Assembly (NCBI GenBank): GCA_012522795.1
Contig: JAAYJT010000041.1
Span: 1 to 55,350 of the forward strand
Source: Bacteroidales bacterium
GTDB taxonomy: Bacteria; Bacteroidota; Bacteroidia; Bacteroidales; JAAYJT01
Length of the DNA: 55,350 nucleotides
Direction: 5' to 3'
Shown: one piece after another, positions 35,465 through 40,829 of the stretch
Numbering within the stretch: the stretch's first letter is position 1
Layout of the letters: every line of letters starts with the position of its first letter
Position numbers and translations under genes: made by a program
Notes under the pieces: generated by a model
Database searches by the model: none
What the model saw: the letters and a program-made list of their open reading frames with translations, nothing else
What the model was told of the DNA's origin: nothing

Positions 35465-36973
35465 TTAAGAGTTGATTTTTTCAAAAGTTTCTATGTCTCT
35501 TATTCCCTTGCGACTCAGTATTATGCAGTAACGCTTATATTTAATCTGTTCATCACTTTTGAGCTGCATTATAAGGTTAATGTAATATATTTTTTCTCCG
35601 TTAATGATCTCATATTGCATATCACCTTTTGGTGCATATAATGGAACAAGGGGATCATCCATTTTTGCAATAAAGTTGGAGAAGTTGAAACGTATAATTT
35701 CATTTACTCCTTGTGTTGTAAACTTACTGCTAAGATTAAGATTAGCTCGGTTGATCTGAACTAATTTGCGGAAAAGTATAATCTTCTCCATATTGTTCCG
35801 GTTATTGGCTTCCAGGATTGCTGATCTTTCCCTCAAATTCATTATTTCGGGTGGCACTTTTGATTCAGCAATAAAGTCCATTGCTTCTTTACTCATGCCT
35901 ACATCGTATTCATTCAAAGAAATTTGCGTTTTTTGATCAAAATGTCTTTTTCCAAGTTTATGTGCAAAATAATATCTGCTCAGATCTTTTATGCGGTCTT
36001 TGAGCATATAGCTTATGACTAAAGCAACAAATAATGGCATAGTAAAGTTTCCATAGCGCTGTTGAAAAGAAAAAGCCATAGCAGTAGCAAAAATCATTGA
36101 GATACCGGCAGCAAGGCTAAAATAAACCTGTTCAGCTATTGCGCCATCCCTTTTTTTATCAGTGTTCAGAAATAGTTCATTTTCAGCATATTTGCTTAAT
36201 AAACCTAATCTGAAAACCAATCTCCGGTTATGCTCGCGGTCATTCTTGTCAACATACAGATAGCCTTTTTCTTTCTTATAGGCAATCTCTTTATTAATAA
36301 GTGAAAATAATTGCCCTAATGATTCTTTATTAATATTTGTAGTTTTTTCGAGGCTGCTGATAAGTTTAAAAGTGTGTTCTTCAATAATATGGCTCATAAA
36401 CTCATCGCCAAACAAATAATAATTGAACACTTCTTTTGTAATCGTAGGTACATTGATTATTTTACGAAGGTTCCGGTAATTCTCTGTGATCTTTTGAACA
36501 TTTGAAGAGTATGTGTCTATAAGAAATGCAATATCATCGTGAATTGTGTTTTCAGTGATATGATTGATTTCATCACGTAAGGCACTTCTGAGAATTGAAA
36601 GGAACATTCTTATCTGATACTCATATTCAGCAGTTTTTGAACGCGATGGCTCAGAAGCAAGATTTGTGAACGATTGTTCAAGCAGACTGAATGGAGGTTC
36701 GTTGTTGTTAGCAATGTTTCTTAACAAGAATACCGGTGTAATAAGCCGTATATTGGTTTTTAACATCCGGTAAAAGTCGTTCTTTGTAAAAGTAGTTTGA
36801 TTGATATCGAGGCTGTTAGGGATGAATATCCATGTGTTACAAGCAAAATCGCTGATTTCCTTTCTTTTGCCTGCAATGAAACTTAGTTTGATTTCAATAG
36901 AGAACTTGTCGTGTATTTTAACAACATCTTCAATCATAAATAGATCACAACTATGAATTAAGTATTTCTGCAA
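35465..36973 (-). CDS. Unrecognised protein with two central membrane helices
   Basis: Product of up to 502 residues that I cannot place in a family. A soluble, mostly helical N-terminal part (about 1-280) is followed by two adjacent hydrophobic helices (about 283-303 and 309-326, separated by RYGNF) and a soluble C-terminal part (about 330-502) with mixed charge. No signal peptide. The architecture suggests both ends on the same (cytoplasmic) side. A second in-frame ATG at codon 13 (36937), starting MIEDVVKIHDKF, is a plausible alternative start; no Shine-Dalgarno decides between them. It precedes the T9SS propeller gene by 5 nt. Confidence 0.7.
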   Translation of the reverse strand: MQKYLIHSCDLFMIEDVVKIHDKFSIEIKLSFIAGKRKEISDFACNTWIFIPNSLDINQTTFTKNDFYRMLKTNIRLITPVFLLRNIANNNEPPFSLLEQSFTNLASEPSRSKTAEYEYQIRMFLSILRSALRDEINHITENTIHDDIAFLIDTYSSNVQKITENYRNLRKIINVPTITKEVFNYYLFGDEFMSHIIEEHTFKLISSLEKTTNINKESLGQLFSLINKEIAYKKEKGYLYVDKNDREHNRRLVFRLGLLSKYAENELFLNTDKKRDGAIAEQVYFSLAAGISMIFATAMAFSFQQRYGNFTMPLFVALVISYMLKDRIKDLSRYYFAHKLGKRHFDQKTQISLNEYDVGMSKEAMDFIAESKVPPEIMNLRERSAILEANNRNNMEKIILFRKLVQINRANLNLSSKFTTQGVNEIIRFNFSNFIAKMDDPLVPLYAPKGDMQYEIINGEKIYYINLIMQLKSDEQIKYKRYCIILSRKGIRDIETFEKINS

Positions 36974-37869: not shown

Positions 37870-38637
37870 ATGGCGGATATTTTATTTGAACTGTCTGAAA
37901 TTCATAAGCATGGAAAACCTTTTGTGCTTTGTATTGTAACTGAAACCGTTGGTTCAACACCGCGGAAAGAAGGTGCTCGTATGATAGTTTTTGTTGATGG
38001 CAGTAGCAAAGGTACAATCGGTGGTGGTTCAGTAGAATTTCACGCAATTAATGATGCAATAAAAATTCTTGAAACCCGAAAACCGATCAAGAAAAAATAT
38101 GAACTCGAAGATGAGCTTCAAATGCATTGCGGTGGTAATATGGAGGTTTATTTTGAACCATTTTACCCGGATTTAAAATTGTATGTATTTGGAGCCGGAC
38201 ATGTTGGCAGAGAAGTTGGGAAATATGCTAAAGACTTTGGCTTTCAGGTGGTTTTTGTTGATCATCGTAAGGATATATTCAAGGAATTTGAAAATAGTTA
38301 TGCAACTTGTATTGCTAAGGATTATTTTGAATCGCTTAATGATATTCGATTTGATAAATGTGATTTTGTGGTTATTTCAACCCCAAAACATGAATTTGAT
38401 GAAAACCTGCTTGGCCTGATAGGCAAGGAAAGTCTTGCCTACCTTGGTATGATAGGAAGTAAGCGAAAAGTTAATGAGGCACGTAAAAGATTATTTGAAA
38501 ATAATATTCTTACAGAGGATCAGCTTGATTTTATTGATATGCCTATTGGAATACCATTTAATGCTGAAACGCCGGCAGAAATTGCCATCAGTATAGTTGC
38601 AAAACTTATTGATACCAAAAACAAGCTCAGTTTATGA
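37870..38637 (+). CDS. XdhC family molybdenum-cofactor insertion protein
   Basis: Chaperone that binds and sulfurates molybdenum cofactor for xanthine dehydrogenase-type hydroxylases. The 255-residue protein has the N-terminal XdhC/CoxI domain (VTETVGSTPRKEGARMIVF, then GTIGGGSVE) and the C-terminal Rossmann XdhC_C domain (LYVFGAGHVGREVGKYA, about 105-120, and GMIGSKRKVNEAR near 200). A TACTTTTG box lies upstream. Its stop (TGA) overlaps an ATG that begins the remains of a xanthine dehydrogenase. The client enzyme beside it is therefore lost, and the gene survives intact. Confidence 0.92.
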   Translation: MADILFELSEIHKHGKPFVLCIVTETVGSTPRKEGARMIVFVDGSSKGTIGGGSVEFHAINDAIKILETRKPIKKKYELEDELQMHCGGNMEVYFEPFYPDLKLYVFGAGHVGREVGKYAKDFGFQVVFVDHRKDIFKEFENSYATCIAKDYFESLNDIRFDKCDFVVISTPKHEFDENLLGLIGKESLAYLGMIGSKRKVNEARKRLFENNILTEDQLDFIDMPIGIPFNAETPAEIAISIVAKLIDTKNKLSL

Positions 38638-39289
38638 ACACAATAAGGTCTGTGCAGGATGATCAAATAGTCATAGTTGACTCCAATAAGATTGATTATC
38701 ATTCATTTGATAATAATCAATCGTAAATAAAAAGGATATTTATGGAAACCAAAGAAGAAACAAAAAGTAAAGAAATCCATACTTCTCAGCAGCGATATTT
38801 TCCTCCGCCAGATCCTGAGGATGCTTTGAATTTCTATAGGACTTATCCACAGGAGTATATTGTAAATGAGTCCACTGATACGGCAATACGTCAGAATAAA
38901 AACTATGAGTTTCTCCTTGAGTTAATTGTTCTTTCTTATGTTCGGGAATTAAAGAAAATCAGGATTTATAATAATGGAATTTATGTAAGAACGGGAGTAA
39001 GTCCTGAGTCTCTAAAAAAACTGATAGAAGAGCAATTACTTCAGGTATCTGAGCTTTTTAAAAGTTTTACTTCCTGGCAAATTCGTAACATGGCTACTTT
39101 AGGGGGCAATATGGCAACATCTTCACCAATTGGCGGTCTTATACATTTATTTATAACACTCAGGGAAAGGTTTCAATTAAAGGTGCAGTTTCTGCCGTTG
39201 ATGATTATAACTCTGAACCTTGTTTTGAACTTTATGCATACAACGAGATCATACTGACTTCAATTGAACTATTAAAGAATAAAACGTAA
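38634..39289 (+). pseudogene. Decayed xanthine dehydrogenase (FeS/FAD part)
   Basis: Three pieces in order look like one eroded gene. (1) A 30-codon frame from the ATG overlapping the xdhC stop (38634-38726) resembles the first strand of a 2Fe-2S domain, then stops; no cluster cysteines remain. (2) The frame 38742-39257 matches the FAD-binding domain of XdhA: PEDALNFYRTYPQEYIV, then STDTAIRQNKNYEFL and WQIRNMATLGGNMATSSPIGG. (3) At about 39175-39190 the homology passes to another frame, ending NEIILTSIELLKNKT before TAA at 39287. The 2Fe-2S centre, the rest of the FAD domain and the whole molybdenum subunit are missing. No transposon remnant is seen. Confidence 0.8.
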
Positions 39290-39326: not shown

Positions 39327-40829
39327 ATGCAACGCTTTATCAACTATTTAAATGTGTTTTTATTTATAACAGGAATTCAGGTTTTGTTCTTTTCTGAAGC
39401 TTACTCTTTGAATCCGAACATGAAATACAGCATACAATATGATACCATTTACATTAATGGCGATATTAATATTGACAACAGAGATTCCTTAATTATATCA
39501 CCTGGCACTGTAATGATGTTTACAGGTTATTTCTCCATTAATGTTTCCGGAAAGATCATTGCAGCAGGCACCCCAACTGACAGTATTGTTTTTACTGTTG
39601 CCGATACCACTGGTTTTTCAAATATAAACATTGGAGCCGGAGGCTGGAATGGAATCAGATTCGAAGATACACCTGCACAAAACGACAGTTCATTGTTTTC
39701 ATATTGCCGGTTTGAGTATGGAAAAGCTACCGGCGATTCAGCGAATTGCTTTGGTGGTGTTATCAGAATGGTGAGATATCATAGTGTCAGAATAAGTAAT
39801 TCATCATTTGTCAACAACTATGCATATTTGCGTGGAGGCGCTATTCATGCCTACAAGTCCAATCCCGTTATTGAGCATTCAGTCTTTGAAGATAACTTTG
39901 CCGGAAACGACACACCTGACGTGTTTGGATACGGTGGTGGGGTAAGTTATTATGCGTCAAATCCGACAATTAAATTTTGCACTTTCAGGAACAATTCTTC
40001 GACAGGATTTGGTGGAGGATTAGTGTTTGATTATTCGAATCCGGAAATACTTAATTGTGTTTTTACCGAAAATTTCAGCGGGCTTGGTGGTGCCATAGGC
40101 TTTTTACGATCTGTTACCAACAGGACAATAGCTAATTTATTGATTTATAATAATGCCTCGGAATTTTTTGGAGGTGGTATAGCAATTAGTGATTCTGACC
40201 CGAAATTTAACAATCTTACTATTGTAAATAATCAGTCTTCAATGGGAGGTGGTTATTATTGTAATAATGGTGCAACTCCTGATATTTATAACAGTATTAT
40301 ATGGGGAAATAATAGTGGAAACGCAGGTGGTTACCTTGGATCTCAGGTGTGGATCTGGGATATAATTTCAACTCCGGGATTCTATAATTGTAATGTTCAG
40401 TATGGAACTGAACAATTTGGAGGTAGTACTTTTATTGGAGTTTATGAAAATAATATAGATGGTGACCCGCTTTTTAGTGATCCGGCTATTAAAGATTTCA
40501 AACTGACCATGGATAGCCCATGTATTAATACCGGAACATCTGATACTACCGGATTGTTTATACCGGCGTTCGACTTTGCAATGATGCCCAGGATTAATCA
40601 TGGTGTTATTGATATGGGAGCTTATGAATATTATGGCCCATTTCCGGGTGTTATACCAGGAGATGCAGATTGCGACGGGGTAGTTAACATACTTGATATT
40701 ATTACTATTGCAAATCATATTATTGGTTTGAACCCTGAACCTTTTTGTTTTGAAAATGCAGATCTAAACTTTGATGCGAGCATTGATTTATTGGATTTAA
40801 TTTGTACAACCAGCATAATACTACAATGA
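39327..40829 (+). CDS. Secreted right-handed beta-helix protein with C-terminal dockerin
   Basis: Exported protein of 500 residues. After a signal-peptide-like segment (1-27) and an N-terminal cap (about 40-100), a parallel beta-helix (about 105-420) shows repeated turns such as RGGAIHAYKSNPVIEHSVFE, GGGVSYYASNPTIKFCTF and GGGLVFDYSNPEILNCVF, as in Pmp-like and choice-of-anchor proteins. The last about 57 residues are a type I dockerin: loop one DADCDGVVNILD is canonical; loop two DLNFDASIDLLD keeps the calcium ligands but has Ala for the usual Gly. No catalytic site recognised; adhesion or polysaccharide binding is inferred. Confidence 0.82.
   Translation: MQRFINYLNVFLFITGIQVLFFSEAYSLNPNMKYSIQYDTIYINGDINIDNRDSLIISPGTVMMFTGYFSINVSGKIIAAGTPTDSIVFTVADTTGFSNINIGAGGWNGIRFEDTPAQNDSSLFSYCRFEYGKATGDSANCFGGVIRMVRYHSVRISNSSFVNNYAYLRGGAIHAYKSNPVIEHSVFEDNFAGNDTPDVFGYGGGVSYYASNPTIKFCTFRNNSSTGFGGGLVFDYSNPEILNCVFTENFSGLGGAIGFLRSVTNRTIANLLIYNNASEFFGGGIAISDSDPKFNNLTIVNNQSSMGGGYYCNNGATPDIYNSIIWGNNSGNAGGYLGSQVWIWDIISTPGFYNCNVQYGTEQFGGSTFIGVYENNIDGDPLFSDPAIKDFKLTMDSPCINTGTSDTTGLFIPAFDFAMMPRINHGVIDMGAYEYYGPFPGVIPGDADCDGVVNILDIITIANHIIGLNPEPFCFENADLNFDASIDLLDLICTTSIILQ

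Follow-up and report, generated by a model that had tools for sequence, protein, structure and literature searches.

The window, i.e. the whole stretch of 55,350 nt that was analysed, is contig JAAYJT010000041.1 of genome G000, a draft assembly of 100 contigs that is 97.01% complete. The locus begins with an xdhC gene on the forward strand (37870–38637), which encodes a protein of 255 aa. The gene is intact, as an earlier note on this DNA had read it: both Pfam domains exceed the gathering score, XdhC_CoxI (PF02625) with 65.9 vs 24.3 bits and XdhC_C (PF13478) with 108.4 vs 29.7 bits. The NCBIfam cut-offs are missed for TIGR02964 (xanthine_xdhC; 138.4 vs 161.6 bits) and for NF045664 (XdhC_rel_AOR; 199.4 vs 350 bits), so the protein is a member of the XdhC/CoxI family by its domains and belongs to neither equivalog. 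Cys87, kept in the motif MHCGG, is the presumed counterpart of Cys82 of R. capsulatus XdhC, the equivalence being drawn from the motif and its place in the protein (PMC2997495). Rhodobacter XdhC takes up Mo-MPT, keeps it bound while it is sulfurated and passes it to XdhB (PMC2997495). The window XdhC can probably still bind the cofactor and shield it.

Directly behind xdhC lie the relics of two further genes, all on the forward strand. An xdhA stub of 30 codons (38634–38726, stop TAA at 38724–38726) starts with an ATG at 38634 that overlaps the xdhC stop TGA at 38635–38637, as the earlier note had seen; the same four-base overlap occurs in the congener G001. The note also saw a 2Fe-2S-like first strand here. 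The stub does sit in the right position, but its likeness to the XdhA N-terminus is weak (46% over 26 aa; E 0.007 when 740 bases are searched, E 1.6 window-wide), so it is called mainly by position. After the TAA the frame reopens into an xdhA remnant (38727–39169), which matches residues 176–333 of the G001 XdhA at 43% identity (tblastn, E 5.9e-33) and residues 180–337 of the XdhA of a second congener, G002, at 44% (E 5.3e-34). Of the FAD-binding domain it holds the first three quarters, FAD_binding_5 (PF00941) matching with its positions 4–128 of 170 at 38793–39164. Most of this domain thus remains, as claimed, yet it is incomplete, and the flavoprotein C-terminal domain PF03450, present in G001, is gone.

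The end of the locus had been taken for a frameshifted end of XdhA, and this reading has to be replaced. The frame at 39170–39289, which differs from that of the xdhA remnant, matches residues 734–769 of the 773-residue G001 XdhB at 61% over 36 aa (tblastn, E 2.9e-6 window-wide) and the G002 XdhB at 45% over 38 (E 1.2e-4), and its TAA (39287–39289) sits at the expected position of the XdhB stop. It is an xdhB C-terminal tail of 39 codons plus stop, identified by tblastn and alignment. Because the tail behind the break is the XdhB C-terminus, the break near 39170 is a deletion junction rather than a frameshift. The junction falls within 39164–39179, its exact base not being resolvable, and leads from about codon 333 of 485 in xdhA to about codon 734 of 773 in xdhB (G001 numbering). 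An ORF of 171 aa at 38742–39257 is consequently a composite of xdhA codons up to about 39164–39179 and, for its final 26 or so codons, xdhB DNA read out of frame. The gene immediately behind the relic (39327–40829) encodes a protein of 500 aa whose C-terminus matches a type I dockerin, and a 502-aa ORF on the reverse strand (35465–36973) has no Pfam match at E 1e-5.

The presumed original state of the operon is preserved in the two further genomes of the family that were compared, G001 and G002, both of the same genus as the window. The intact relatives that the earlier note had suggested comparing thus exist: both carry the order xdhC–xdhA–xdhB (the G002 xdhC is cut by a contig end), and their XdhC proteins are 71% identical to that of the window. 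The G001 proteins pass the NCBIfam cut-offs for xanthine dehydrogenase (XdhA, TIGR02963, 505.4 vs 467 bits; XdhB, TIGR02965, 984.8 vs 849.5 bits), in agreement with the description of a xanthine dehydrogenase in decay beside an intact xdhC. The window shares with the G001 operon the gene order, the overlap, the FAD domain and the XdhB tail, but from xdhA start to xdhB stop it spans 656 bases (38634–39289) where G001 has 3867 (L005 7878 to 4012). It is therefore about 3.2 kb shorter and is without the cluster cysteines and the molybdenum domains. By comparison with G001, the first loss covers roughly xdhA codons 28–175, which encode the cluster domain. The second runs from about codon 334 of xdhA to about codon 733 of xdhB.

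These losses are not made good elsewhere in the assembly. No Fer2_2 match occurs in genome G000, which bears out the statement that the cluster cysteines are gone, and no MoCoBD_1 match occurs there either. The molybdenum subunit, also said to be gone, has lost its domains in this way, but the tail of about 39 C-terminal codons of xdhB survives. A continuous xdhA, named beforehand as one of two results that would overturn the reading, was not seen in genome G000. With intact orthologues in close relatives, disabling changes and signs of relaxed constraint (the distance test described below is by itself not significant), the locus is a pseudogene of xdhAB. The earlier note dated the loss as recent. 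It is recent only when set against the divergence from the two congeners (XdhC identity as given above), but not young in absolute terms.

The rest of the molybdenum pathway in genome G000 is partly lost and partly kept. Molybdopterin (PF00384) has no match in the genome (2 and 1 in the congeners), the congeners have 2 and 3 matches to Fer2_2, and FAD_binding_5 is found in G000 in the present remnant alone. A mocA-like cytidylyltransferase gene on a separate contig (G000:C16:9373-9942) is likewise broken: it has one TGA and one TAA inside the match, the stretch contains a second short match, and the relic is 39% identical to its G001 homologue, compared with 54% between the congeners. The name MocA is given by similarity, since the G001 protein falls under the TIGR03310 cut-off (99.6 vs 186.45). 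The earlier question of whether XdhC serves another molybdenum hydroxylase thus receives a negative answer within this 97%-complete draft. A search for moa/moe genes, also proposed, succeeded. Contig G000:C62 carries moaC and moeA (Pfam) together with an aldehyde:ferredoxin oxidoreductase (AOR; PF01314, PF02730) and a WtpA-like tungstate-binding protein that passes TIGR03730 (306.5 vs 242.75). The ORF between moaC and moeA, which shares 68% identity over 278 aa with an ORF of G001, is presumably moaA, and the genes after the wtpA-like gene are assumed to encode permease and ATPase. The presence of the AOR and the WtpA transporter protein next to moaC and moeA likely explains why cofactor synthesis is kept. 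The AOR need not be the sole cofactor user, as sulfite-oxidase-type or MOSC proteins may also occur.

In the congener G002, a moaA start is fused to a moaC end (L018 1279-1557, reverse strand, G002:C31) through an internal deletion or a misassembly. Its moeA is fast-evolving, although the genome has an AOR and matches Fer2_2 three times. In G002, then, a different section of this pathway may be breaking down.

In the preferred reading, to which we give a probability of about 0.78, an xdhC–xdhA–xdhB operon has decayed to xdhC plus relics, and XdhC is a chaperone without a client. With an order and a cause that we infer from the remains, at least two internal deletions plus substitution would have reduced the xanthine dehydrogenase operon, one deletion taking the 2Fe-2S part of xdhA and the other the rest of that gene together with almost the whole of xdhB. 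This would be part of a dismantling of the xanthine-oxidase-family branch, in which the mocA-like gene has become a pseudogene too. Synthesis of the pterin cofactor would be retained most likely for the AOR beside moeA, moaA and moaC, a putative tungsten enzyme. Since XdhB and, as far as seen, every other hydroxylase are gone, the hand-over of the cofactor has no target. XdhC is then most likely on its way out, and an idle chaperone whose decay is yet to come would be the simplest account. Against this reading, XdhC is free of clear signs of decay and, by the invariant columns described below, stayed under constraint longer than xdhA. The stop-free xdhA remnant and its low omega, both given below, also count against it, and roughly 3% of the genome may be absent from the assembly.

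The strongest competitor, though an unlikely one, holds that selection maintains XdhC for a job without a molybdenum hydroxylase. The protein might, for instance, protect or handle the pterin on behalf of the tungsten enzyme, or its Rossmann domain might have a role. No genomic link between XdhC and the AOR was noticed in the course of these comparisons, which counts against this view. In its favour, xdhC has no stops where the mocA-like gene does, and it is less eroded than xdhA. Among nine aligned sequences (the window and eight intact relatives), the window breaks 8 of 29 otherwise invariant columns in the xdhA remnant and 4 of 67 in xdhC (Fisher p 0.006); each intact relative, taken in turn, breaks 0–3 of 29–32 and 0–5 of 67–72, respectively. 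The replacements in xdhA include two FAD-domain glycines (G43E and G83R), positions to which we ascribe a role in FAD binding. The xdhB tail, aligned with seven intact relatives, has 3 of 12 such columns broken in the window, against 0–1 of 12–13 in six of the seven, but G320 breaks 8 of 20, so the tail proves little by itself.

Rates point in the same direction with less force. Maximum-likelihood branch lengths (window; G001, G002) are 1.06; 0.33, 0.34 for xdhA, 0.35; 0.17, 0.21 for xdhC and 0.088; 0.051, 0.082 for the AOR gene, the only control gene for rates. MoeA was dropped as a rate control because the G002 protein itself evolves fast. The distance ratios of the window branch to the sister mean rise from AOR (1.42) through xdhC (1.61), xdhA (2.09) and mocA (2.15) to the xdhB tail (2.71), with overlapping intervals. 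In a distance bootstrap with AOR as control, the excess over xdhC agrees in direction with the invariant columns but is not significant for xdhA (P 0.08) or for mocA (P 0.052). On this moderate evidence, xdhC has probably been under constraint for longer than xdhA.

A second case in the order, a similar deletion that also speaks for the preferred reading, bears on the same question. Genomes G286 and G202 belong to one genus and are 91–92% identical on either side of a deletion; G202 has xdhC–xdhA–xdhB, while G286 (L089 5836-6000, reverse strand, vs L244 4469-8325) retains xdhC, a brief beginning of xdhA, a fragment of 56 bases from xdhA, and the end of xdhB including the stop codon. As in the window, xdhC is kept, xdhA is cut to a short start plus a piece and xdhB to a C-terminal tail, but the breaks lie elsewhere, and the deletion of xdhAB in G286 is independent of that in the window. 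Unlike the window protein, the G286 XdhC has lost the signature cysteine, which is replaced by glycine. Pairwise dN/dS between G286 and G202 is 0.144 for xdhC and 0.066–0.125 for six flanking genes. A value far below 1 in a genome without xdhAB would favour a second job and indicates that the G286 xdhC has mostly been conserved after the loss. Against this, it is the highest of the seven, a hint of relaxation, and the comparison of the two genomes spans periods both preceding and following the loss.

For the order at large, 393 genomes sampled evenly out of a larger set were searched: 141 have a match to XdhC and 133 one to MoCoBD_1. Strong XdhC matches (E ≤1e-30) occur in 96 genomes, five of which are without MoCoBD_1: the window genome and four more that also have a whole XdhC-like gene (G011, G064, G286 and G295), again a point for a job of its own. 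Completeness is 88–97% in these five (88% in G011), so some of the missing matches may reflect gaps. The G011 locus, without xdhA/xdhB, is colinear with a 3.8-kb contig of the same-genus G128. A rule that the enzyme always goes first was dropped, since 9 of the 133 MoCoBD_1 genomes have no XdhC match; among genomes with a weak XdhC, 12 of 45 lack MoCoBD_1. The signature cysteine, examined in all 96 proteins, is missing in G064, G286 and G295 only and is kept in the window. It is therefore lost in 3 of 5 enzyme-less genomes vs 0 of 91 others (Fisher 7e-5, uncorrected for kinship), and the whole CGG motif in 3 of 5 vs 2 of 91 (p 0.0007). Its loss in three of the four further lone proteins suggests relaxed constraint on the cofactor job, a point against selection for a second one.

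In public named genomes, at least 558 places encode an XdhC relative, and the best 80 of these, ranging from Bacteroidales to other phyla, were analysed. Within these best 80, an xdhA and/or xdhB homologue is present at 61 (both at 55); 19 loci have neither, 14 of them despite 2.5 kb or more of flank to either side and 5 with a shorter flank. Remains of xdhA/xdhB were sought at 25 lone-XdhC loci, namely all 19 of the best 80 without xdhA/xdhB (including L149 and L153) plus L083, L086 and L088–L091, and were found at one, L089. The combination of xdhC with an xdhB tail is therefore no general pattern. At L179, scanned too, there is a distant whole homologue, and L133 (6001-8277) has xdhC and xdhA, with no xdhB homologue found in the locus. 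The XdhC-like genes at L088 (5514-6269) and L090 (7048-7824) are whole but lack the signature cysteine and sit on long branches; their genomes have no MoCoBD_1 match, and neither locus contains a relic of xdhA/xdhB.

A more far-reaching proposal, and one slightly more doubtful than the competitor above, gives XdhC-like proteins an independent function that outlives all molybdenum hydroxylases: the enzyme genes would be lost first while XdhC remains whole, the cysteine would go later, and the cysteine-less protein would continue. If so, the window would represent the first step, G286 the next, and G064 and G295 the end state.

It is improbable that XdhC serves a xanthine-oxidase-family enzyme in the unassembled part of the genome. 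The incompleteness and fragmentation of the draft leave room for one, and the Fer2_2 counts of the congeners mean that more than one such enzyme is usual in the genus, judging by two genomes; but MoCoBD_1, Fer2_2 and a second FAD_binding_5 would all have to be hidden there, and the mocA-like gene is broken.

The 171-aa ORF is very improbable as a selected stand-alone gene, which the earlier note had offered as a way to refute its reading. Its 171 open codons are more than neutral drift readily leaves after many substitutions. The xdhA remnant has no stop in 141 codons, an outcome to which a neutral simulation gives a probability of 0.20 to 0.05 for 30–60 substitutions and of 0.026 to 0.004 for 80–140, and the branch length of 1.06 would favour the larger numbers, which counts against a relic. 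A codon model also places omega of the remnant on the window branch below 1 (0.065; equality with the background not rejected, 2d 2.4; a value of 1 rejected, 2d 6.1). For xdhC equality is not rejected (2d 0.06), and for the xdhB tail it is rejected (2d 6.0) on 39 codons. The absolute omega values are not relied on, as synonymous sites are saturated, with many branch lengths above 3, and a jump in the xdhC fit at omega ≥0.85 (2d 884.7 vs 11.8 at 0.70) is taken as optimiser failure. Against a selected gene stand the eight replaced positions, invariant in eight relatives, the out-of-frame xdhB codons at its end, and the absence of the cluster domain and PF03450. An assembly error or chimera, conceivable in a draft of this kind, is hardly credible, since Fer2_2 and MoCoBD_1, expected from the missing segments, occur nowhere else in the assembly, the remnant is replaced at otherwise invariant positions, and the mocA-like gene is broken on a separate contig.

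Partial loss of molybdenum functions has parallels. In East Asian Helicobacter pylori, one lineage likewise loses molybdoenzyme function stepwise while relatives keep it; there, bisC is the only molybdoenzyme and the cofactor synthesis genes decay too, whereas the window genome keeps synthesis beside the AOR and loses the xanthine-oxidase branch (PMC3120642). Orphan molybdoproteins without a complete cofactor pathway share the partial molybdenum trait but are the reverse of the window genome, which has cofactor genes and a chaperone and no hydroxylase (PMC6147048). Among the titles and opening lines of abstracts surveyed, there was no description of an XdhC left behind by its enzyme, which is no proof of absence from print.

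The locus shows ordinary gene decay and suggests that an XdhC helper can outlast the enzyme it served. It offers a natural case, plus a second in the same order, of a dedicated cofactor chaperone outlasting its enzyme, and so allows a direct look at whether XdhC depends strictly on its client, as implied by the work on Rhodobacter, or does something else besides. The locus is also an example of how a genome can lose the xanthine-oxidase branch and still make the cofactor, probably for a tungsten enzyme.
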